A stretch of DNA of 64,000 nucleotides from Aliarcobacter vitoriensis (GTDB lineage Bacteria; Campylobacterota; Campylobacteria; Campylobacterales; Arcobacteraceae): assembly GCF_003316695.1 (NCBI RefSeq), contig NZ_PDKB01000006.1, positions 62,001 to 126,000 on the forward strand, in the 5' to 3' direction. A model generated the notes under the pieces. That model saw nothing but the letters and a program-made list of their open reading frames with translations. It did not search any database and was not told the origin of the DNA. The position numbers and the translations under genes are program-made. Every line of letters starts with the position of its first letter. Within the stretch, counting starts at the first letter, position 1. This document shows, in pieces, positions 9,612-21,265 of this stretch.

Positions 9612-11276
9612 CTAAAAGACCCATCCAGTTTGAAACAATATCTTACTATTTTGATGAGAAGTTTTTTCACTTGAAATTGGGTCAGAGTTTAAGGTCCATG
9701 CCACTTGTACTTTTGCAAAAAAATCTTTATAGTTTGCATAGTATCCAAACCCTACATCTTGAAGTGTTCTTCTTTGAAATGTAATATCTTGATTTTTCTC
9801 TTGATATACATTTCCCATATCATAAAATGTTCCTATTTTATGATTATATAAAGATATACTAGGAAGTTTTGAAAATAGCTCTACATTTATCATATATCCA
9901 TTTTCAGCACTTTGTTCATTAGAAGGATAGACTTTTACTCCATAAGCTCCACCCAAACTTAAATCTTCACTTCCATCTAGGTTTTTATTTCCTAGTACTT
10001 TTTGAGCTATTAGATTTGTATTTAGTGAAAATATTTCAGAAAAAGCTATCTCATTTGAGATATAAGTATCTACTTTATTATAGTTTCCACTATTTAGATT
10101 ATTATATTTTGAGCTCAAATCTCCTGTTGTAAAATTTAGATTTGCAAATATTCTTGATGGGAACTCTCCAATACTATAATATTTTTCAAAATCAAGCGAA
10201 ACCACAAAAGAATCTATAGTTTTATCTTCATATTTACTACCAGTTATATAATCTTTAAACTCTTTATGATAATACTTTCCTTTTAACCAAAATGATTGAT
10301 TTGTACTTCTTTGTAATGGATAGCTTAATCCCGCCTCATATATATTTGCATTACCTTTTGCATCTAAATCTTTATACTCTTTAACTAAATTATAGTTTGT
10401 TCTAGTATATGCAACATCTGCTTTTAAACCATAAGAATTTAAAGGTAGTTCATAAGCAAATCTTCCATTTTTCAAATCAGCACCATTTGAAACAAGTCCT
10501 GAAACTGACAGTTTATCTCCCAAAGTTGCAATACTATTTATATTTACTAAAGATTGAGTTCTATACAAACCTGTATATCTACTTCCAAAGTTATCAGCAA
10601 CTACATAACCATCTACTCTTGGAGTTGCAGTAGTTTCAATATTAAAGTTACTTGTTCCTACATCAGCTCCTGGGCTAATTTCTGCTTTAGATACTTTAAC
10701 ACCTGCTCTATCATTTATAAGTAACATAGCTTTTTGGATTACATTTGTATCAATAACAGAAGAGGATTTTGTGTTATCAAAAATATCTTGAACTACACTA
10801 TTTCTAACTAAAGAGTTATTAGTTATTTTAAACTCACCATAGTTTCCCTCTAAAATAGAGATATTTAAAATATTTCTATTTTGTTCAAGGTTTTGAGCAG
10901 GTAGATATGCACGTGCAACAAAGTAACCTTTATCTTGATATAGTTTAGAGATAATAGAAGACAAAGTTTGAATTTGAGTAAAAGTCAAATCTTTGTTTTC
11001 AAACTCTTTAATAGAGTTTAAAATATCATCTGTAGATATTTTTGTATTACCCTCTATCTTAAATCCTTTTATAAGAATAGTTTTACTATCTCCCATATCT
11101 TTTAAGCTATCTTGTTGTACCCCCTCTATTTTTACAATATCTTTTTGTTTTATTGGAATATCTTTTGGTGCTTGTATCTCTCTTTCTATACTTGAGCTAT
11201 TTGGTATTGGACTTGCTCCTAAAAGTAAGCTAGAGCTTAACACTGAAAGAGTTATTATTTGATTTAGTTTTATCAT
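9612..11276 (-). CDS. Two-partner secretion transporter TpsB (ShlB/FhaC/HecB family)
   Basis: TpsB proteins are outer-membrane 16-strand barrels that secrete a dedicated TpsA exoprotein. The 554-residue protein has a signal peptide (1-22, ending SLLLGASP) and a proline-containing linker. A POTRA domain follows, with KGFKIEGNTKIS and VARAYLPAQNLEQNRNIL at about 68-145. The rest is a beta-barrel domain with the family loop LSLGGAYGVKVYP near residue 440 and a C-terminal aromatic residue (GWVF). It starts 8 bases after TpsA and shares its promoter. In Aliarcobacter, similar pairs are listed as hecA/hecB; I do not assign the symbol. Confidence 0.92.
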   Translation of the reverse strand: MIKLNQIITLSVLSSSLLLGASPIPNSSSIEREIQAPKDIPIKQKDIVKIEGVQQDSLKDMGDSKTILIKGFKIEGNTKISTDDILNSIKEFENKDLTFTQIQTLSSIISKLYQDKGYFVARAYLPAQNLEQNRNILNISILEGNYGEFKITNNSLVRNSVVQDIFDNTKSSSVIDTNVIQKAMLLINDRAGVKVSKAEISPGADVGTSNFNIETTATPRVDGYVVADNFGSRYTGLYRTQSLVNINSIATLGDKLSVSGLVSNGADLKNGRFAYELPLNSYGLKADVAYTRTNYNLVKEYKDLDAKGNANIYEAGLSYPLQRSTNQSFWLKGKYYHKEFKDYITGSKYEDKTIDSFVVSLDFEKYYSIGEFPSRIFANLNFTTGDLSSKYNNLNSGNYNKVDTYISNEIAFSEIFSLNTNLIAQKVLGNKNLDGSEDLSLGGAYGVKVYPSNEQSAENGYMINVELFSKLPSISLYNHKIGTFYDMGNVYQEKNQDITFQRRTLQDVGFGYYANYKDFFAKVQVAWTLNSDPISSEKTSHQNSKILFQTGWVF

Positions 11277-11284
11277 CTTTTTTC

Positions 11285-14200
11285 CTACTTATTTATCATA
11301 TTTTGGAAGTTTCTAGCTTCTTCTTCTTTTGTTGGGGCATTTATCCCACCATTTACAATCTCTACACCAAATTTATTATTGAAGCTTAAAGCTTGAGTAT
11401 TTAAGTTTGTATTTAATCTTTGATTATCTATTTGTGTTGTTTGTGCAATCTGATGAAAAATACTATCTACTACATCTTGTATATTTGGAGTTTCAGGTTT
11501 TGGAGTTTCAGTTTTAGCCTCAACTATTAATTTACCCTTTTTAAAATCTATCTCATAATTTGGGTTATCCAAACTACCTTTTTCTATATCATAACTCCCT
11601 ACTTCACTATTTTGTGTAGCATTTGTACTTAAAGTTCCATTTAAAGTATCATTTTCTATTAATCCATTTGCTACATAAGTTAAGTTTGGATTATTTTCAC
11701 CTTGTTTTTTATTTTTATTATCAGCAGTTACAGAAATATCTTTTTTTATAATATTCAATGTTCCTTGTGCTACATTAATATTATAATTATCAGATGTTCC
11801 ACTAATATTTGTTTTAGTAGTTCCAACATTTTTACTAGAGCTTATTGTAGTTATTCCACTTAGATTTAAATCAGCTTCTGTATCACTTCCTAAAAGCTTA
11901 TTTTCTCCAAATGTATATCCATTTACACTTTGAGTTTGACCGTTATAAACTAAACTATTTGAGTTTGCGATAATATCTAGGTTGGCTTTATTTATAGTCA
12001 AAGTTCCTTTTGTACCAACTCCTGCAACTATGAATTCATCAAGTGATACAACACCTATATTAGAATATGTTCCTGCATTTTTATATGCTGTTATATCATT
12101 ATTATCAACATCTACAAATTTGAAATTTACTCCAGCTGTACCAAAGATAGCTTGTGAAGTGTAGATAGAACTTAAATTTTGAAGTAAACCATTGTAAGTA
12201 GTTGATTGATTTCCTAAATTTGCAGTAAAAGTTTTTGGAGCAATAGCCCAAACATATTTATTATTTACGCTATCATATTTTAATATTGGAGTTGAAGAAA
12301 TTACACTACTATCTGCAACTATATCCCAACTAGCATCTTTAAAGATTTTTCCATAAGACATCTCCTCTGTTGTAAGTCCTGTAACTCCAGTTTCTATACC
12401 AGCTCCTACACCATTTCCACTAAACTTTGTTTTATCATAAAAAGAGTTTGTGATTGTTCCATCATTAGATCCAACCAATCCACCTAAAGAAGAAGTACCA
12501 CCTACACTTACACTAGCATATGAGTTTGTAATTTTTCCATCCTTATTATTATGTCCAACCAAGCCACCCTTCTCAGAACCATTACCACCTACAGTTGCAC
12601 TTGCATATGAGTTTAAAATTATTCCAGAGTTAGCTCCAGCTAAACCTCCGATCCATATACCATTTCCAGTTATTACTCCAGTAACATATGAATTTGTAAT
12701 ATCAGTATAATAATTAACCCCAACTAGTCCTCCTGTAAAACTTCCTCCTGTAATATTTACATTTAAAAGTCCAATATTTTGAATATTTGAACCTGATTGA
12801 GTATGACCAAATAATCCAGCTTCATTTAGATTATTTTGTCTATTTATATATAAATCTGAAATAGTATTTCCTAAACCATTAAATTTGAATAAAGCTCTAT
12901 TATCATTATTACCTATTGGGTTCCATCCTTCTCCAGTTCCTATATATCCAGCTGTTGATCTATCTATATTATTTAAGAGATTAAAATAGTAGCCTCTAGT
13001 TACAATATTTGAGTTATTAATATTTTGTAGTTGTGTCCAGTTTGTAATTGTATATGGGTTTAATGCTGTTCCAAAACCACCATTAAATAGTATAGATTTA
13101 GATTTATATTCATCTTTTGTAACACCTAGTAAATAAGGAAGAAGAACTACTTCATATCCACTTACACTGGCTCCACCTCCAGTTGTTCCCCAGCCACTAA
13201 TATTTGAAAATGAAGATAAAATTTCTGCTTTTGTTTTTCCATGATAAGTTTTATCTCGCATATCAGCTTGATTTGTTTCTTTATCATAATATGAGTTTGT
13301 AATGATTCCACCATTATTCCATCCAATCAATCCTCCTGCGAAAGAACTTTCACTAACTACTATTCCACTTGCATATGAGTTTGAAATTGTTCCATTATTT
13401 TGTCCAACCAAACCACCTACATTAGAACCATCTCCACTGCCACCCACTGAACCAAGAGCATATGAGTTTGAAATTTTTCCAAAAGCAAAATTACCCCCAA
13501 CCAATCCACCTACAATATTATTTCCACTTACAGTTCCACTTGCATATGAGTTTTCAATTGTTCCAGAAGGAAAATTACCCCCAACCAATCCACCTACAAT
13601 ATTATTTCCCCTAATATTCAGATTTTCTAATCCAATATTTTTTATAGTTGCACTATTATTTATATATCCAAACAACCCAATATAATCTTGAGTTGGTCTA
13701 TTTATATATAAATCTGAAATAGTATGTCCTAAACCATCAAATGTTCCTGTAAAAACATTTGTAGCATCTCCAATCGGATTCCAACCTTCTCCATTTCCAA
13801 TATATCCAGTTGTTAATCTATCTATATTATTTAAGAGATTAAAGTAGTAACTTCTAATTACATTATTTGAGTGATTAATATTTCGCAACTGTATCCAGTT
13901 TGTAATTGTATATGGATTTGCTTCTGTTCCATGGCCATCTTCAAACCAAGTGTTTGAAAGTTTTGTAACATTTTTTAAAAATGGTAATTCTGCAGTTCCA
14001 CTTGCACCATTTCCTCTACCCTTTGAAAAATCAGTTTCCCATTCACTACTTGCACTTTTTAAAGCAGTTGCAATTTCTATTTTTGTTTTTCCGTAAGCAC
14101 TATCATTCATAGAAGCTGTATTTGTTGCATTATCATAATATGAGTTTGTAATCGTTCCACCAATATTCTCTCCAACTAATCCTCCTACAAAAGAACTACT

Positions 14201-15970
14201 ACTTACAATTCCACTTGCATATGAGTTTTCAATTATTCTTCTATTAACTCCAACTAATCCGCCTATATAAGAATTAGTACCAATACTCACTGAACCAAGA
14301 GCGTATGAGTTTGCAATTGTACTAACATTATCTCCAACCAATCCACCTACATAACTATCTCCACTTACAGTTCCACTTGCATATGAGTTTTCAACTGTTC
14401 CATCATTAAGTCCAACCAATCCTCCTACATTACTTTGTCCAGTAATATTTATATTCTCTAATCCAATATTTTTTATAGTTGCACTATTATTTGTAAATCC
14501 AAATAGTCCAACAAAATCTTGAGTTGGTCTATTTATATATAAATTAGAAATAGTAAAACCTTTACCATCAAATGTTCCTGCAAATCTATTTGCACTATTT
14601 CCTATTGGATTAAATCCTGCTGTTCCCCATTTTGCTGTATCTGTTTTTGTAGCACTTGCATCTATATCTCTTCCTAGTTCATATTTTCCATTTAGTGCTG
14701 TTTCTATCAATTGCATTTGATTTATATTATTTACAATTACTTTTCCATTTGTACCAAATACTACTTTACCTGTTGTATTAGCTGCATTAAAATATACTCC
14801 ACCGTTTGTAGAGTTTGTATTATTTATTGTTGCATTTACATTTATATTATCTGCTATTAATTTTAGTTGTTTATCTGTACTCCAAGTGATATTTTGATTT
14901 ACAGTTATATTATTATCAGCTTGTAGTTCTAGATTTGTTCCAGCTAAAGCATTTTGTATAGCAGTTGCACTTACACTTCCACTATTAAAATCACTTCCAC
15001 CGTTTGCTTCAATTGTCATATTAACTGGGTCAAGTAGCCATTTATTTGCAGTGATTTTAAAACTATCTTTTACAGATAAGTTTTCTCCACTTGTTTCCAC
15101 AAATGAGTTTTTAGCTTTTATTTCCCCATCTATATTTGCTGTTCCACCGTGAGCAAAAAGTATTACTTCATTTGTTTTACCTGTAATATCATCTAAACTA
15201 TTTGCTTCTATAATTCCTGTATTATTTACTACACCTTTAAGCAGTTCATTTTTTGCATTTGTTGTAAGATATACATTTCCACCATTTGCAACTATTAAAT
15301 TATTGTTTTCAACAAGTGAGTTTAAAGCACCTTTTGTTACTTTTAGTGAGATATTTTGATTTTCATTTAAAGTTATAGAGAACTCATCTGCTCCTGTTAG
15401 ATGAACAGTTCCTTTATGTACTTTTATATCACCATTGTTTATTACACTATTTGCAACAAATACTGCATAGGCTTTATCGTTTAGGTTTATATCACCTTGA
15501 TTTTCAATACTCTCTTTTGAGTTACCTTTAAAAGAGTAGTTACCTTTTTGAAAGTCATCATCTGATAGCTCTTTAGTTGTTACAAGAAGTCCAGAAGTAT
15601 TTACTTTAGCATTTTTACCAAAGAGTGTACCATTTGAGTTTAAAATCCAAACTTGTCCATTTGCGTTTAATGCTCCATCTATAATAGATTTTTCATTTCC
15701 TATTACTCTGTTTAGAGTTATTGAGTTTTGATTTGGTTGATTAAAGTTTACTGTTTCATTTTTAGAGATACTAAAATCTTGCCAATTTATAGAGGCTTTT
15801 TGGCTACTTTGGTTTATATTTGTAGTATTTCCATTTTGGTTTATTGTTGCATTTCCGCTTACTACTGTTCCACTACTTGGAGCTGAGTATAGATTTGAAG
15901 CAACAACAAGGGAAATCAATCCACCTTTTAGTATTCTAAATCGGTTTTTATATTCATGATTTTGATACAT
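11285..15970 (-). CDS. TpsA filamentous hemagglutinin-like exoprotein with GLUG and MBG repeats
   Basis: This is a predicted large secreted adhesin exported by the adjacent TpsB. The 1561-residue protein has a long signal sequence (about 1-30, ending NLYSA). An N-terminal TPS secretion domain (about 30-260) follows, with NFNQPNQNSITLNRV, NGQVWILNSNGTLFG and NTSGLLVTT. A repeat region at about 415-1180 is built of three modules, each rich in GGLVG and NSYASGTV units (GLUG motif). MBG-type beta repeats occupy about 1230-1480, and the C-terminal tail ends NFQNMINK without an LPXTG or autotransporter barrel. The ATG at 15970 has AAGGAG upstream. Transcription probably starts at the operator-controlled promoter near 16006. 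The ligand is unknown. Confidence 0.9.
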   Translation of the reverse strand: MYQNHEYKNRFRILKGGLISLVVASNLYSAPSSGTVVSGNATINQNGNTTNINQSSQKASINWQDFSISKNETVNFNQPNQNSITLNRVIGNEKSIIDGALNANGQVWILNSNGTLFGKNAKVNTSGLLVTTKELSDDDFQKGNYSFKGNSKESIENQGDINLNDKAYAVFVANSVINNGDIKVHKGTVHLTGADEFSITLNENQNISLKVTKGALNSLVENNNLIVANGGNVYLTTNAKNELLKGVVNNTGIIEANSLDDITGKTNEVILFAHGGTANIDGEIKAKNSFVETSGENLSVKDSFKITANKWLLDPVNMTIEANGGSDFNSGSVSATAIQNALAGTNLELQADNNITVNQNITWSTDKQLKLIADNINVNATINNTNSTNGGVYFNAANTTGKVVFGTNGKVIVNNINQMQLIETALNGKYELGRDIDASATKTDTAKWGTAGFNPIGNSANRFAGTFDGKGFTISNLYINRPTQDFVGLFGFTNNSATIKNIGLENINITGQSNVGGLVGLNDGTVENSYASGTVSGDSYVGGLVGDNVSTIANSYALGSVSIGTNSYIGGLVGVNRRIIENSYASGIVSSSSFVGGLVGENIGGTITNSYYDNATNTASMNDSAYGKTKIEIATALKSASSEWETDFSKGRGNGASGTAELPFLKNVTKLSNTWFEDGHGTEANPYTITNWIQLRNINHSNNVIRSYYFNLLNNIDRLTTGYIGNGEGWNPIGDATNVFTGTFDGLGHTISDLYINRPTQDYIGLFGYINNSATIKNIGLENLNIRGNNIVGGLVGGNFPSGTIENSYASGTVSGNNIVGGLVGGNFAFGKISNSYALGSVGGSGDGSNVGGLVGQNNGTISNSYASGIVVSESSFAGGLIGWNNGGIITNSYYDKETNQADMRDKTYHGKTKAEILSSFSNISGWGTTGGGASVSGYEVVLLPYLLGVTKDEYKSKSILFNGGFGTALNPYTITNWTQLQNINNSNIVTRGYYFNLLNNIDRSTAGYIGTGEGWNPIGNNDNRALFKFNGLGNTISDLYINRQNNLNEAGLFGHTQSGSNIQNIGLLNVNITGGSFTGGLVGVNYYTDITNSYVTGVITGNGIWIGGLAGANSGIILNSYASATVGGNGSEKGGLVGHNNKDGKITNSYASVSVGGTSSLGGLVGSNDGTITNSFYDKTKFSGNGVGAGIETGVTGLTTEEMSYGKIFKDASWDIVADSSVISSTPILKYDSVNNKYVWAIAPKTFTANLGNQSTTYNGLLQNLSSIYTSQAIFGTAGVNFKFVDVDNNDITAYKNAGTYSNIGVVSLDEFIVAGVGTKGTLTINKANLDIIANSNSLVYNGQTQSVNGYTFGENKLLGSDTEADLNLSGITTISSSKNVGTTKTNISGTSDNYNINVAQGTLNIIKKDISVTADNKNKKQGENNPNLTYVANGLIENDTLNGTLSTNATQNSEVGSYDIEKGSLDNPNYEIDFKKGKLIVEAKTETPKPETPNIQDVVDSIFHQIAQTTQIDNQRLNTNLNTQALSFNNKFGVEIVNGGINAPTKEEEARNFQNMINK
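12420..14720 (-). repeat. Three diverged module repeats inside the TpsA gene
   Basis: Three approximate copies, at about 14720-14100, 13905-13230 and 13035-12420, share the order of a NNIDR or RDID segment, GWNPIG-like or FNPIG, a GTFDG or KFNGLG turn, ISDLYINR, LFG, IKNIGL, several GGLVG units and a final TNSYYD or TNSFYD. The first two are closest: both have RPTQD, NNSATIKNIGLEN and ENSYASGTVSG. These look like internal duplications that lengthened the adhesin stalk. Boundaries are approximate. Confidence 0.75.
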
Positions 15971-16005: not shown

Positions 16006-16035
16006 ATTATAGATAAAGAGTGTGATGAAGTGTGA
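16006..16035 (-). promoter_or_regulatory. Operator/promoter of tpsA-tpsB (site 1)
   Basis: On the minus strand the heptamer TCACACT occurs twice with TCA between them (operator bases 16019-16035), then 7 bases, then a perfect TATAAT (16006-16011). The TpsA start codon lies 36 bases beyond the -10 box. The same arrangement occurs at 16539-16568 and 21236-21265. A tandem direct repeat with 10-bp period just upstream of the -10 is the usual layout for class II activation by an OmpR/PhoB-type regulator, and such a regulator is encoded at 16602-17294. Confidence 0.8.
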
Positions 16036-16167
16036 TGTTTTTTACTTTTTTAAAATAAATTTTGAAATTTATAGTTAGATTTGATTAAAGTAGCTATAAA
16101 ATGGAGATAGTAGAAATAAAGAAATTTTGAGAATTTTAAATAGAGTTAAAAAATAACATAAAATACT

Positions 16168-16353
16168 TCACTTTTTTACTATTTTATAAAATTTAGCATT
16201 TGCAATATTTTGGAGAAACTTTGGTTCAATCTCATGTAAGGCAATAATATTTACAAAATTACTATCCATATACCAACCTTTACCAGTATCTTTAATTTTT
16301 TCTATTTCAAATAGTTCTATTAGCTCATCTTTTGAAACAATAATTTCTTCCAA
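16168..16353 (-). CDS. Small protein of unknown function (61 aa, TTG start)
   Basis: I do not recognise this protein. It is 61 residues long, acidic in its first third (EEIIVSKDELIELFEIEKIKD) and lysine-rich at the end, without a signal peptide or membrane segment, so it is probably cytoplasmic. The start codon is TTG, supported by AGGAG five bases upstream and the 20-base gap to the preceding 43-residue gene. The two small genes form a unit behind operator site 2, so they are probably controlled together with the TpsA adhesin and the receptor operon. Confidence 0.6.
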   Translation of the reverse strand: MEEIIVSKDELIELFEIEKIKDTGKGWYMDSNFVNIIALHEIEPKFLQNIANAKFYKIVKK

Positions 16354-16373
16354 ACTAACTCCTAAATATATAA

Positions 16374-16505
16374 TTAGATCTTAATCCAACTATCTTCATC
16401 ATCTATTTCAAACTCTTCTTCTATTTCACATATAATAAAATTGCAAATCCCCTTATTTGCAATTTCAATGTTTTGATAGTTATGATTTATATAATTATTT
16501 AACAT
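16374..16505 (-). CDS. Small acidic protein of unknown function (43 aa)
   Basis: This short gene encodes 43 residues: MLNNYINHNYQNIEIANKG, a hydrophobic ICNFIIC stretch and an acidic EIEEEFEIDDEDSW tail. The ATG has AGGAT seven bases upstream, and a promoter with operator site 2 lies 34 bases further upstream, so it is the first gene of its transcript. It matches no family known to me. Two cysteines, at about 21 and 26, may be of interest. Its place between the regulator gene and tpsA suggests a role in the same regulon, but the function is unknown. Confidence 0.55.
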   Translation of the reverse strand: MLNNYINHNYQNIEIANKGICNFIICEIEEEFEIDDEDSWIKI

Positions 16506-16538
16506 GTAATATCCTATAAATTGTTTCCTAGAAATTGA

Positions 16539-16568
16539 ATTATAGAAAAAGAGTGTGATGAAGTGTGA
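16539..16568 (-). promoter_or_regulatory. Operator/promoter of the two small genes (site 2)
   Basis: The minus strand has the same 17-base tandem element TCACACT-TCA-TCACACT (16552-16568), 7 bases and TATAAT (16539-16544) as sites 1 and 3. It lies between the response regulator stop codon and the 43-residue gene. The -10 box is 33 bases upstream of that start codon. Confidence 0.8.
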
Positions 16569-16601
16569 AGTTTTTAATAAAAAATAGTTAAATTAAAGAC
16601 T

Positions 16602-17294
16602 TTAACTATTTTTTAAAATGTAACCAACACCATAAACATTTACAATAGTATTTTTAGGAAGTTTTTTTCGTAGATTACTAACCAAAGATTTGACACTATC
16701 AAGTGATATTTCAATAAAAATATCACTCCAGCAATGAGACATAATATTTTCAATAGTTATATCTTTATTTCTATTTATTATAAAAAGTTCTAGCAAAGAG
16801 AGCTCTTTTTTACTTAATTTTATTTCAATATTTTTATTAAATAGTTTTTGGTTAGTTTGATTAAAATATATATTTTCATCAAATCTTATGATTTTTTCTG
16901 AACTTCTTAATAAATCAATAGAAATTTTATTCAACATATCTTTAACTTTTTTTAAAGTTGCAGGTTTTATTAAATAGTAATTTACATCTATATTGATTGA
17001 TTCTAAAAGTAAACTATCATTTGAATGTGCAGTTATTAACACTATCTTTGTCTTATAGTCATTTTCTCTCAAAATCTTTGTTAGTTCAATTCCTGTTAAA
17101 TGTGGCATATAAATATCAAGTATGAGAACATCTGGTTTATGTTGTTTATAAAGTTCTAAAGCCTCATTCCCATCATCTGCAGTAAAAACCTCTTTAAAAT
17201 AGCTAGAAAAGTATTCCAACATCTCTTTTTGAATAGCTTTATCATCCTCTGCATAAAGTAGAGTAAAATGCTTTAAACTATCTTTATTGCCCAT
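16602..17294 (-). CDS. OmpR-type DNA-binding response regulator
   Basis: This is the output regulator of the adjacent sensor kinase. The 230-residue protein has a receiver domain with the acidic pair in YAEDDKA (16-18), phospho-acceptor Asp60 in VLILDIYMPH, Thr88 and Lys110 in YLIKPAT. A winged-helix DNA-binding domain (about 135-230) carries LSKKELSLLEL and SVKSLVSNLRKKLP and ends VYGVGYILKN. It overlaps the kinase gene by 11 bases. It is the obvious candidate to bind the three tandem operators at 16019, 16552 and 21249, including the one that drives its own operon, which would be positive or negative autoregulation. Confidence 0.92.
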   Translation of the reverse strand: MGNKDSLKHFTLLYAEDDKAIQKEMLEYFSSYFKEVFTADDGNEALELYKQHKPDVLILDIYMPHLTGIELTKILRENDYKTKIVLITAHSNDSLLLESINIDVNYYLIKPATLKKVKDMLNKISIDLLRSSEKIIRFDENIYFNQTNQKLFNKNIEIKLSKKELSLLELFIINRNKDITIENIMSHCWSDIFIEISLDSVKSLVSNLRKKLPKNTIVNVYGVGYILKNS

Positions 17295-18660
17295 TTTTAT
17301 CTCCTATTTTTTGTGAAATATTTAAAATAAATTTTGCCCCAATAGAACTATTTTCAACTTTTATATCACCAAAACTATTTAACATAATAATTTTTGCAAT
17401 ATAAAGTCCCATTCCAGTTCCACCAGTTTTATGTTTTGTTGTGAAATAAGGATCAAAGATTTTATCTAAATTCTCACTTTTTATCCCACCTGCATTATCT
17501 TGTATTTCTATATAAATATTTATTTCATCTTCATAAATATTTATATTTATCTCTTTTTCTTTTATATCTCTTTGTTCAAATATATCTATGGAATTTGATA
17601 AAATAGAAAAAATAACTTGCATAAATTCACTCTCATAAGCACATATAACACTATCTTGTTTATTTAGATTTACTTTTATATTTTTTAATGAAGGACTTAA
17701 AACTTTTATACTTTTTTCTATTGCTTGATCAATTTTAAAATTTTGTTTATCTTTATTTGGATTTAAAAAATCTCTAAATGTGTCTATTGTATTTGACATA
17801 AAATATATAGTATTTGATATATCTTCTAATCTTTGTTGTAGATACTCCTCATCATAATTTTTAAGTTCTATATTTCTATCTGTATTTAATAATATTGCAT
17901 TTATTTTCATCAAAGGTTGTCTCCATTGATGAGCAATATTATCAATCATCTCTCCCATAGAAGCAAGACGATTTTTTTGCATGATATTTTTTTCATAAAT
18001 AATTCTTTTTTCAACCTCTTCCTCTATCTTTTTTATCATTTTATATGCACTATTGTTTATAACAGAAATTTCATTTTTAAAACACTCTTCTTCAAAGCTT
18101 ATTTTATCATTTAAACTATAATTGAGCATTTTATCTTTTAGTTGCATTAGAGATTTTAGATTATATTTAATAAGAAATGATGAGATAAATAAAGATACTA
18201 TAAAAAATATAGCTATAAATACTATAAATTTATTAAATTCATTTAAAAGTTTTGAGTAAATAGATGAAAATGTATAATAAACCTTTAACTCTCCTATTTT
18301 CTCTTTTAAAATAGTATCTTCCAAAAGCACATGGTATATTCTTGATTTTTTAATATCTTTTTTTATATTTTCGTAAATTACTTTATTATCAAGGTCTAAA
18401 ATATCAATCCCAATTATTTCACTATGTGCTTGCATACTTTCACTAATTAGCTCTTTTATATTTTCTTCCAAACCTAAAGTAAGATTTATAGAGATTATTG
18501 GTGATATAGTTTTTACTATTGAATCTATTTTTTCATTCTCAAGTAAAATTAACTGATTAGAAACTATTGTATAATTTTTATAAATAAACACAGCTATAAA
18601 AAAGCTCATAACCACAGTATTTATAATAATGATTTGTGTGATAATATTTAAATTTTTCAT
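17284..18660 (-). CDS. Membrane sensor histidine kinase
   Basis: This is the predicted kinase partner of the downstream response regulator. The 458-residue protein has a transmembrane helix at about 6-26, a periplasmic sensor region of roughly 115 residues and a second helix at about 145-165. A coiled linker leads to the phospho-acceptor region RLASMGEMIDNIAHQWRQPL with His near 243. The HATPase domain has the N box NSIDIFEQ, DNAGGI, FDPYFTTKHKTGGTGMGLYI. The HQWRQPL form is common in Campylobacterota. Its ATG overlaps the stop of the YfiR-like gene (ATGA), implying that the kinase signal comes from that periplasmic protein. Confidence 0.92.
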   Translation of the reverse strand: MKNLNIITQIIIINTVVMSFFIAVFIYKNYTIVSNQLILLENEKIDSIVKTISPIISINLTLGLEENIKELISESMQAHSEIIGIDILDLDNKVIYENIKKDIKKSRIYHVLLEDTILKEKIGELKVYYTFSSIYSKLLNEFNKFIVFIAIFFIVSLFISSFLIKYNLKSLMQLKDKMLNYSLNDKISFEEECFKNEISVINNSAYKMIKKIEEEVEKRIIYEKNIMQKNRLASMGEMIDNIAHQWRQPLMKINAILLNTDRNIELKNYDEEYLQQRLEDISNTIYFMSNTIDTFRDFLNPNKDKQNFKIDQAIEKSIKVLSPSLKNIKVNLNKQDSVICAYESEFMQVIFSILSNSIDIFEQRDIKEKEININIYEDEINIYIEIQDNAGGIKSENLDKIFDPYFTTKHKTGGTGMGLYIAKIIMLNSFGDIKVENSSIGAKFILNISQKIGDKNGQ

Positions 18661-19193
18661 TTTAATATCACTACATTAAAAATAGAATTTTGTAGTTCAA
18701 TTCCGCTATCTTTTAAATTCTGAAGCTTTAAAAATATATTTACTTTTGAACTAATCTTTAATCCAAAAATGACTCCAAAGTCTAAATAACTATCATCATA
18801 AGTAAAACTCAATCTACCATTTTTAGATAAAAGTTCTGTTATCTGAACAATTTTATCTTTTTTACCAAGCAAAAAAAAGTAAGCTGTTGAAATATTACTA
18901 CTTATAAAATCATTATATCTTATAAGATTTACTTCAAAAGTAAAATCTTTTAAAGTTATATAATTTTTTTCTAACATTTCTTTTAAAATTTGTGCAGAGT
19001 TTAAATCTATATCATCATATAAAATAGTTAAAAGTATTTTATTATTTATAAGTTTATTCTCTAAATTATTATCAGCAATTATTATTTTTGGAAATACTTT
19101 TGCTTGAAAATCTAAAAGATTTATATTGTAAACTCCATTTGCAAAAGTAAATATTGACAGATATAAAATAAGTAAAAGTTTATTAAAAATCAT
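18657..19193 (-). CDS. YfiR-like (DUF4154-type) periplasmic signalling protein
   Basis: YfiR in Pseudomonas is a periplasmic repressor of a diguanylate cyclase; related domains occur fused to or beside kinases and GGDEF proteins. The 178-residue product has a signal peptide (1-18, ending TFANG). The C-terminal third resembles the family: LLSKNGRLSFTYDD, FGVIFGLKISSKVNIFLKLQNL and a final hydrophobic strand. The assignment is from remembered family features and the parallel protein at 61564, so it is moderate. It overlaps the receptor gene by 11 bases and the kinase by 4, placing it between an outer-membrane receptor and an inner-membrane kinase as a possible signal carrier. Confidence 0.7.
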   Translation of the reverse strand: MIFNKLLLILYLSIFTFANGVYNINLLDFQAKVFPKIIIADNNLENKLINNKILLTILYDDIDLNSAQILKEMLEKNYITLKDFTFEVNLIRYNDFISSNISTAYFFLLGKKDKIVQITELLSKNGRLSFTYDDSYLDFGVIFGLKISSKVNIFLKLQNLKDSGIELQNSIFNVVILK

Positions 19194-21207
19194 ATCTAAA
19201 ACTTACAAACCAAGTTGTACCCTCTCTTAGCATTTTCTCATCTTTTGTATTGTATCCATAGTAAAAATACTCTTTATCTAAGATATTTTTTGCTCCAAAA
19301 TATAGTTTTGCATCTTTTGAAATATTATGAGTAAGAGTTAAATCAAGTAAAGCAACATCACCTATTTTATTACCATTTAAAAGATTTTTAGAACCATAAT
19401 ATCTAATCAATGGGCTAATAGTAAATTTAGAATTTATTGGATAAATATATCCTAAAATTGTAGTTATTTTTGAAACTATTGGTGTATCTATTTTTAAGTT
19501 TTCATAACTATTTTTATAAGCAAAACTATTAAAACTAGCATTTAAAATTACTTTTGAACGATTCTCAAAACTTTTACTATACTCTAGCTCTGCTCCATAG
19601 TTATATTCATCTTGCTTTTTATTGTAGTATTGTAAAGAATCTTTATACCTATAACCATCAATAGAATTTATATACTTTTGATAGTATAAATTTAACTTTA
19701 ATTTCTCATCATTTTGTTGATAAATATACATCAATTCAACACTTTGTAGTTTTTCTGCTTCTAAAGCTTGGTCTTGAGAGTTTATTATATGCCCTACAAA
19801 ATAGTCTTCTATTAAAGATGGATTTCTATTCGCTTGAGAAATAGAGAATTTATATATATTTATATCATCATTAGAGTAAACAGAACCTAATCTAAAGTTT
19901 AAAAGCTTTTTATAATCTTGATAGTCATCAATTCCAAGATTTGCTAAAAGAGTTAAATTCTCATTTACACTATAAGTATCTGCTAAAAAATATGACATAT
20001 TAGTTTTTGAACTCTCATCACTTATAAATCCTTGCTTTCCTGAAAACTCTTTTAACTCCTTTTGTACTGGGAAATAGGCATCATATTTTGGAATGTATTG
20101 TCCTAAACCTGTTAGATAATCTACATTTGTATAGTATTTATTTTTTGGAATTTGGATTAAAGAACCATAAACTCCATATTCGATTTTATTATTTGTAAAG
20201 CTAGTATTTTTTACTAAAAGTGATATATAACTCTCTCTTTGAGTATAATCAACTTTAAAATGTGGGTCATAGATTCCAACATTATTTGGTTCAAATTTAT
20301 ACATATAAGTATTCATTTTATAATTACTTTGTACACTTCCTATCTTCATTTCCAAAATATTGTTTGTATTTAAGAAAGTATCATAAGTTATTTCATTTGA
20401 AAACATCTCATATTTTGAGTAACCATCATCACTCCAATCTAATAATCCAGTAGTACCATAATTGTTTTGTCTATTATTTTTTATATAATTTGAAGATATT
20501 TTAAAGTTTTTATTTTCTAAAGAAGCACCAATTAAAATATCTTCAATTCCTTCTAAAGATTCTTGTTTTCTATCAAAATTTGTTCCAAAATCTATAGAAT
20601 TAGTCAAAATAGCACTAGGGGCATCTACTTTTTTATTGTGTTTCAAGTAACTTGTAGATAATTTTAGTTTCCAATTATCATTTAATTTTTCATTTAAAAG
20701 TAAAGAGAAATTCTTATTATCAAAGCTTCCTGTTCCAAAAGCAATATTACTTTTATTTTTTGTGATAATATCAATAACAGCTACAAAACCACCTTGATCA
20801 TAAATAGTTGAAGCATTTCCTTTTGATATTTCTATTCTATCAATTAGACTAATTGGAAAATTTTCAAAATAGTTTGAAGATACACTAACTCCATTTATTC
20901 TATATTTTATTTTCTCTTGAAAACTATTTAAAGGTTGAGTATATCCTCTTACAGATACAATAGAGTTAACAGAAGTTGTTTTAAAAGCTTGAATTCCAGC
21001 AACAAAATTTAAAGCTTCAGACAAAGTATTTATTCCTAATGTTTGTAGATCATTAGCATATAAAACTGTCATTGCTGTTGGTTTATAATCAATATTTAAG
21101 TTAGATTTATCACTATATTCATTTAAATCATCTAATATATTTTCTAGTTCTTGAGAAAATAAAAGTATAGGAAGTAATAAAAATATAAATACTATTTTAA
21201 AAAACAT
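19183..21207 (-). CDS. TonB-dependent outer-membrane receptor
   Basis: This is a predicted 22-strand receptor for uptake or sensing of a ligand. I start it at 21207, giving 674 residues, because the upstream ATG at 21237 falls inside the -10 box, while the internal one precedes a clear signal peptide (FFKIVFIFLLLPILLFSQ) and has a GAGAAG site. The plug domain spans about 35-155: MTVLYANDLQTLGINTLSEAL, VSVRGYTQP, RIEISKGNASTIYDQGG. The barrel ends with DF in VSFRYDF. There is no N-terminal signalling (STN) domain, so signalling may go through the YfiR-like protein encoded next. The ligand is unknown. Confidence 0.9.
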   Translation of the reverse strand: MFFKIVFIFLLLPILLFSQELENILDDLNEYSDKSNLNIDYKPTAMTVLYANDLQTLGINTLSEALNFVAGIQAFKTTSVNSIVSVRGYTQPLNSFQEKIKYRINGVSVSSNYFENFPISLIDRIEISKGNASTIYDQGGFVAVIDIITKNKSNIAFGTGSFDNKNFSLLLNEKLNDNWKLKLSTSYLKHNKKVDAPSAILTNSIDFGTNFDRKQESLEGIEDILIGASLENKNFKISSNYIKNNRQNNYGTTGLLDWSDDGYSKYEMFSNEITYDTFLNTNNILEMKIGSVQSNYKMNTYMYKFEPNNVGIYDPHFKVDYTQRESYISLLVKNTSFTNNKIEYGVYGSLIQIPKNKYYTNVDYLTGLGQYIPKYDAYFPVQKELKEFSGKQGFISDESSKTNMSYFLADTYSVNENLTLLANLGIDDYQDYKKLLNFRLGSVYSNDDINIYKFSISQANRNPSLIEDYFVGHIINSQDQALEAEKLQSVELMYIYQQNDEKLKLNLYYQKYINSIDGYRYKDSLQYYNKKQDEYNYGAELEYSKSFENRSKVILNASFNSFAYKNSYENLKIDTPIVSKITTILGYIYPINSKFTISPLIRYYGSKNLLNGNKIGDVALLDLTLTHNISKDAKLYFGAKNILDKEYFYYGYNTKDEKMLREGTTWFVSFRYDF

Positions 21208-21235
21208 TTTCTTCTCATTTTCATAAAATTCTAAC

Positions 21236-21265
21236 ATTATAGTTAAAAAGTGTGATGAAGTGTGA
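21236..21265 (-). promoter_or_regulatory. Operator/promoter of the receptor-YfiR-kinase-regulator operon (site 3)
   Basis: The minus strand has TCACACT-TCA-TCACACT (21249-21265), a 7-base spacer and TATAAT (21236-21241), the same as sites 1 and 2 although the spacer bases differ. The -10 is 29 bases upstream of the chosen receptor start codon. This places the regulator gene in its own regulon. Confidence 0.8.

Follow-up and report, generated by a model that had tools for sequence, protein, structure and literature searches.

Introduction

OmpR/PhoB-type response regulators bind direct repeats as tandem dimers, and for Mycobacterium tuberculosis PhoP the repeat consists of 7-bp half-sites, TCACAGC, with a strict 4-bp spacer, a spacer of 3 bp having cut affinity about 20-fold (PMC4832192). 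Here we describe a tandem box of comparable design in a 64,000-nucleotide stretch of the Aliarcobacter vitoriensis genome (contig NZ_PDKB01000006.1, positions 62,001 to 126,000; hereafter the window), where it occurs three times ahead of perfect -10 hexamers, and we propose that it is the binding site of the OmpR/PhoB-type response regulator encoded at 16602-17294. Among solved structures, PhoP ranks second as a match to this regulator, and its half-sites, like those of the present box, are 7 bp long and start with TCACA. In contrast to the strict 4 bp of PhoP, the half-site spacer is 3 bp, giving a repeat period of 10, in each of the 27 sites from three families that were aligned. The helix contacts also differ, since by alignment Glu215 and Tyr217 of PhoP correspond to Lys and Leu in the present regulator.

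The box of the DccRS system of Campylobacter jejuni reportedly reads WTTCAC-N6-TTCACW and lies over the -35 region. In this form it has a TCAC core in common with the present box, but its period is 11 rather than 10 and it has no ACACT core. The recognition helix shared by the box-linked regulators (see below) was absent from the regulators of nine genomes sampled from two other large families, which account for most of the remaining members of the order and which we take to be Campylobacter- and Helicobacter-like; the best regulator matches in these nine genomes were 25-36% identical, in a comparison that did not include the DccR sequence itself. On these grounds orthology with DccR, which was considered, is unsupported. 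DccRS has an OmpR-type regulator from the same phylum that acts at a handful of promoters, mostly of periplasmic or membrane proteins (PMC9449129).

HP1043/HsrA of Helicobacter pylori, an essential orphan regulator with a genome-wide role, recognizes TTTAAG-N5-TTTAAG with a period of 11 (PMC5253667). Like the present regulator it is of the OmpR/PhoB type, it binds tandem repeats that take the place of a -35 element immediately before the -10, and it is a proposed activator that binds its own promoter (PMC5253667), as we propose here as well. Unlike HP1043/HsrA, however, the present system has a local regulon and a 10-bp period. The PceSP (TCS2) system of Sulfurospirillum, for which an electrophoretic mobility-shift assay has been done, uses the site CTATW-N17-CTATW and has targets in organohalide respiration (PMC7755780), and both of these features set it apart. 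It is nonetheless similar as a local two-component system of the same phylum that acts on its own operon and neighbouring clusters, with binding sites that mostly overlap the -35 (PMC7755780), the region in which the present box is found.

Arcobacter-group genomes hold many two-component systems, with 78 genes counted in Arcobacter butzleri (PMC2147049). The targets of Arcobacter-group regulators are mostly unpredictable from sequence. The passages of the A. butzleri genome paper on HecA and HecB, an FHA-type exoprotein and a HecB/ShlB-type transporter from the same bacterial group as the exoprotein-transporter pair found here, give no regulator or operator for hecAB (PMC2147049). For the present locus the regulator, its exact DNA box, a likely complete regulon and a matched sister pair can be proposed from sequence alone, and the predicted route starts at a receptor in the outer membrane and ends at the secretion system of an adhesin. 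The first-pass annotation of the window knew of no published description of the motif, and we likewise found none of the box or regulon in Arcobacter in the open-access literature, although such an absence is not proof. Thus the box and its regulon appear to be unpublished, whereas a direct-repeat OmpR/PhoB box that controls a local regulon is a known arrangement.

Three tandem boxes and their extent

The 17-mer TCACACTTCATCACACT occurs exactly three times, always on the minus strand (16019-16035, 16552-16568 and 21249-21265), and each copy is separated by exactly 7 bases (CTTTATC, CTTTTTC and TTTTAAC) from a TATAAT whose last T lies 36, 34 and 29 positions from the A of the ATG at 15970, 16505 and 21207, respectively. 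The first-pass annotation had reported these operators, gaps, hexamers and start-codon distances, and all were exact on re-check. At the window's GC content of 0.267, a first-order Markov model built from its composition predicts 5e-6 exact copies per 64 kb and 0.0002 per genome. No additional site was present in the window at up to 3 mismatches or in the whole genome (2,426,792 bases in 66 contigs) at up to 2. The genome-wide count had been set beforehand as a check in which a frequent motif would speak against an operator; the three sites it returned all precede genes and sit within ~5 kb of the regulator gene.

The 27-site alignment yields the consensus TNACACTTCRTNACACTYTT, in which two 10-bp units are followed by four weak positions and then by the -10. 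The 17-mer originally described was correct letter for letter, but the conserved element is wider, ~20 bp, and reads TNACACTTCR-TNACACTYTT. Any base occurs at position 2 of each half-site, and the flanks hold little information except for an A-rich stretch just upstream of the box within the genus. In every one of the 27 sites, 7 bp separate the 17-mer from the -10. The -10s of distant members are weaker (CATACT, TAAGAT and CATCAT). A promoter scan found no -35-like hexamer paired with any of the three TATAATs at 16-18 bp, and, if the -10 is taken to lie at -12 to -7, the box spans approximately -36 to -17, that is, the -35 region.

Co-occurrence of the box and the regulator

A scan of 31 genomes of the genus with a 30-position pattern, in which the NNN and the spacer were free and the 20 fixed positions could hold up to 2 mismatches, found the box in seven: three sites in four genomes, two sites in one and one site in two. 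Orthologues of the regulator are encoded in five further genomes of the genus (97, 90, 87, 69 and 67% identity, the next match in the genus being ~40%), and all six genomes with the regulator, A. vitoriensis included, carry the box (hypergeometric probability 9.5e-6). The layouts kept within the genus are receptor, 178-aa protein, kinase and regulator in six genomes, the TpsA/TpsB pair in five and the pair of small open reading frames (ORFs) in four.

Among 299 genomes scanned across the order, the box was found in one of another family (G144), right behind a gene for a regulator 43% identical to the one studied here. The six of 22 genomes in this second family that encode a close orthologue of the G144 regulator (at least 54% identity) are exactly the six in which the box is found when up to 2 mismatches are allowed (1.3e-5). 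A third family (G198) has two variants of the box, one of them ahead of the regulator gene itself. Extension to 397 genomes of the phylum added only G055, in which the regulator is also present. In these two larger scans the box occurred solely in genomes with an orthologue of the regulator, plus one deletion relic, and it persists beside regulators that are only ~40% identical. A search for TCACACTNNNTCACNCTNTTTNNNTANNAT in one genome per species (84,980 species), a scan that may omit records near the window, returned three records, all from Campylobacterota. Viral contigs scanned for the box gave no match, and thus there is no sign of a phage origin.

Recognition helices and a sister clade

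The regulator contains receiver and Trans_reg_C winged-helix domains, both above their gathering scores, which places it in the OmpR/PhoB type, with a phosphoacceptor predicted by sequence at Asp60 (VLILDIYMP) and the recognition helix SLDSVKSLVSNLRKK. Of the 44 regulators placed in a tree, the 12 that are box-linked form one group with a single boxless, long-branch regulator (support 97/96), and this group sits inside a larger one (99/98) together with a sister clade without the TNACACT box. The regulator of G243, which is 41% identical and has no box, falls outside the box clade. The helix S-[IL]-x-S-[VI]-K-[SN]-x-[VI]-S-x-LRKK is found in every one of the 12 box-linked regulators; in nearly all of the paralogues set beside them, K or R replaces its last S and the preceding residues differ.

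The sister clade (L027, L034 and L036) has the helix NGLKN[ML]VKRLRKK, and its regulators adjoin the genes of a type I secretion ABC transporter and of a TolC-like protein of the outer membrane that bears an OmpA domain. Upstream of these secretion genes is a second tandem box, GATACTT-N4-GATACTT-N8-TATAAT, with an 11-bp period. The genus scan found this box, with 0-1 mismatch, beside a regulator of the sister kind in seven genomes (G002, G003, G006, G010, G013, G017 and G021), with tree membership of the regulator tested in G003, G010 and G013 only. A different helix, half-site and period within the same architecture is as direct reading by the regulator would predict. The helix-box pairs of the two clades (TNACACT with period 10, GATACTT with period 11) offer a natural test of OmpR-type specificity and of a change in spacing.

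A third variant, GATACTTTTnTAATACT, also stands ahead of TATAAT in the genus (G001:C1:1228655-1228686, G006:C1:1502603, G010:C1:1673090, G011:C1:1545553 and G017:C114:28220), and the G001 site is directly upstream of another response-regulator gene. This variant suggests that boxes of the kind belong to a wider family.

Proposed activation and its alternatives

We consider it highly probable that the three sites are binding sites of the regulator at 16602-17294 and that they serve phosphorylation-dependent, class II-like activation with autoregulation. The proposal of the first-pass annotation that the repeats are operators of this regulator draws support from the co-occurrence in two families, the constant spacing and the sister helix-box pair. 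From the sites, genes, co-occurrence, spacing and helix correlation, all read from sequence, we infer that the regulator binds the box, that it is phosphorylated and that it activates rather than represses, and we infer the route of the signal. A signal from outside would be received via the TonB-dependent receptor and the apparently exported 178-aa protein, whose presence suggests that an outside ligand is sensed through the outer membrane, and would be passed to the histidine kinase. The kinase would then phosphorylate the regulator at Asp60, and two regulator molecules would bind head to tail on the 10-bp-period element. The bound box would stand in for the missing -35, with the dimer touching RNA polymerase on the -10 just downstream. 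Three promoters would be activated in this way: that of the signalling operon itself, as feedback, that of the TpsA/TpsB adhesin pair and that of the two small ORFs.

Several observations weigh against this proposal. In the seventh box-bearing genome of the genus, which matches A. cryaerophilus LMG 9065 (L062 11515-11773), the box is present without the regulator, in a deletion relic where the box and 45 receptor residues remain. In G005 (L061 12141-14377) the regulator gene is split by a 460-aa IS-like ORF, while the kinase, the receptor and one box remain. The boxless long-branch regulator (L094, G013) is placed within the box clade, at a modest support of 89/66, and thus belonging to this clade is not enough to predict the box. 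The co-occurrence probabilities are guides only, because the genomes are related and hence not independent; the recurrence in three families carries more weight. Co-occurrence by itself cannot tell binding by the regulator from binding by another protein that travels with the locus. Finally, a missing -35 is common in this phylum and hence is weak evidence for activation.

The regulator might instead bind the box as a repressor, blocking RNA polymerase at the three promoters until a signal lifts the block. The overlap of the box with the core promoter is compatible with such a role, as are the perfect TATAATs of A. vitoriensis, and in this phylum promoters that lack a -35 are often functional (PMC5253667), so that these three might fire unaided. 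However, the invariant gap of 7 bp across three families argues for contact with RNA polymerase, whereas a blocking protein would tolerate drift, and the weaker -10s of distant members are expected if these promoters need help. Moreover, HP1043 and PceP of the same phylum, which bind repeats that cover the -35 or lie immediately before the -10, have been argued to be activators (PMC5253667, PMC7755780). We therefore regard repression as unlikely.

That the box is read by some other DNA-binding protein, with the neighbouring regulator a mere passenger in the gene cluster, appears very improbable. The link between box and regulator is one of co-occurrence and helix correlation only, and kinase and regulator always travel together. 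Yet targets and sensors change between families while the regulator and kinase core remain, and the kinase is not DNA-binding; in addition, the tandem box of the sister regulator differs in sequence, and regulators of this family usually bind direct repeats of roughly one helical turn (PMC4832192). The identity of the three 17-mers could also be taken for a trace of recent duplication or for a mobile repeat that plays no part in regulation, a reading that we reject almost completely, in agreement with the selection claimed by the first-pass annotation, since spacers and flanks differ among the three sites, orthologous sites elsewhere keep their own flanks, and the sites persist across families at a fixed distance from the -10 ahead of genes, with no copies scattered elsewhere in the genome.

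Exchange of sensors and targets

Between families the regulator and kinase core stay beside the box while sensors and targets change, which indicates that regulator and box are the stable pair. The inputs are exchanged, being a TonB receptor, an exported protein and a two-helix kinase in the genus and a kinase with a MASE6-type membrane sensor in the second family. The targets are exchanged as well: in place of the two-partner adhesin, the box of the second family precedes lipoproteins of ~1050 and ~600 aa, those tested having no Pfam or NCBIfam match, and in G198 it precedes proteins of 706 aa and 1475 aa, the latter surface-like. In G084 the regulator gene is reversed, yet the box is still ahead of the lipoprotein. 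In G005 the box precedes a sensor protein with NMT1, SBP_bac_3 and GGDEF domains, which is itself ahead of the receptor operon. The targets usually include an exported or surface product.

We lean towards the view that the Campylobacterota have, in the kinase core, the regulator and the TNACACT box, an old and portable output module for exported or surface proteins, present in at least three families, with exchangeable inputs and targets. As part of the same view, the sister regulator, with its different helix and its box of 11-bp period, would control the type I secretion operon, and the matched helix-box pairs would reflect a split in specificity.

Genes behind the boxes

Box 3 heads an operon of overlapping genes that ends with the regulator (Table 1). 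The first gene encodes a protein with both the Plug and the TonB-dependent barrel domains of a TonB-dependent receptor; as to its ligand, NCBIfam gave only weak matches, far under the cut-offs. The ORF finder places its start at an ATG inside the -10 (21237), but a plausible ribosome-binding site goes with the start at 21207, as the first-pass annotation had assumed. For the 178-aa protein, Pfam and NCBIfam gave no family match and did not confirm a likeness to YfiR that was noted by eye only; its AlphaFold2 model (two sequences) had a pLDDT of 43, too poor for use in fold searches.

Table 1. Positions of the boxes, promoters and genes discussed in the text. Positions are those of the window unless a locus label (L) is given.
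Feature	Position	Strand	Remarks
Box 1, 20-bp form TCACACTTCATCACACTCTT	16016..16035	-	ahead of two-partner-secretion genes; exact 17-mer extended by 27-site alignment
-10 TATAAT, promoter 1	16006..16011	-	7 bp from box 1
Box 2, TCACACTTCATCACACTCTT	16549..16568	-	ahead of two small ORFs
-10 TATAAT, promoter 2	16539..16544	-	
Box 3, TCACACTTCATCACACTTTT	21246..21265	-	ahead of receptor-kinase-regulator operon
-10 TATAAT, promoter 3	21236..21241	-	
TonB-dependent receptor (Plug and beta-barrel), operon gene 1	19183..21207	-	PF07715 3.2e-15; PF00593 1.1e-23
178-aa protein, N-terminal signal-like stretch	18657..19193	-	kept in 6 genomes of the genus
Sensor histidine kinase	17284..18660	-	H-box motif HQWRQPL; HATPase_c PF02518 8.2e-16
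OmpR/PhoB-type response regulator, proposed box-binding protein	16602..17294	-	PF00072 7.9e-25; PF00486 2.2e-14
TpsA-type exoprotein, 1561 aa, behind box 1	11285..15970	-	TPS domain PF05860 5.9e-31; GLUG repeats PF07581 5.3e-38; MBG domain PF18676 9.5e-22
TpsB-type outer-membrane transporter	9612..11276	-	POTRA_2 PF08479 4.4e-16; ShlB/FhaC/HecB PF03865 8.3e-20
43-aa ORF, gene 1 behind box 2	16374..16505	-	between-species indels in multiples of three
61-aa ORF, gene 2 behind box 2	16168..16353	-	TTG start; AGGAG upstream
~1050-aa lipoproteins beside box, second family	L060 13567-16746; L069 10743-13883; L086 8871-12020; L087 826-3984		
Second tandem box, GATACTT-N4-GATACTT-N8-TATAAT	L096 5914-5931 (-); L097 7223 (+); L098 7938 (+); L101 6891 (+)		between sister regulators and type I secretion operon

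Behind box 1, a TPS domain beside a protein with POTRA and ShlB/FhaC barrel domains identifies a two-partner (type Vb) secretion system, in which the TpsB gene starts 8 bp behind the exoprotein gene. The first-pass annotation had described a small regulon, and the presence of only three sites bears this out; its account was incomplete, however, as it omitted this adhesin system and the two small ORFs behind box 2. The length of the TpsA exoprotein varies between species from 1127 to 2092 aa; its N-terminal part is 54-77% identical and the remainder differs.

The 61-aa ORF behind box 2 encodes a further copy of a small protein that each of the 31 genomes of the genus has (also at L172 5758-5976), for which Pfam and NCBIfam gave no match. 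In the two genomes that were read, the common copy lies directly after a different response-regulator gene, a placement that hints that this family may work with response regulators. Between G000 and G008, substitutions in the 61-aa ORF number 4, 5 and 12 at the first, second and third codon positions. Because of this third-position bias, and because the indels of the 43-aa ORF are in frame, both ORFs are probably translated. A small RNA was considered as an alternative product of site 2, on account of its hardly varying leader and the hairpin described below; the region has no Rfam match, and its transcript folds barely better than shuffled sequences (z -1.37), so that with indels in multiples of three a coding role is preferred. 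Within 16374-16532 (minus strand) the leader and the beginning of the 43-aa ORF hardly vary from species to species, and a perfect hairpin, TTGCAAAT-AAGGGG-ATTTGCAA, is present, which could possibly form an RNA element inside the coding region. In G014 (L066 9741-9980) the 43-aa ORF has grown to 79 aa through in-frame copies of an 18-bp unit that encode EIEEEF repeats.

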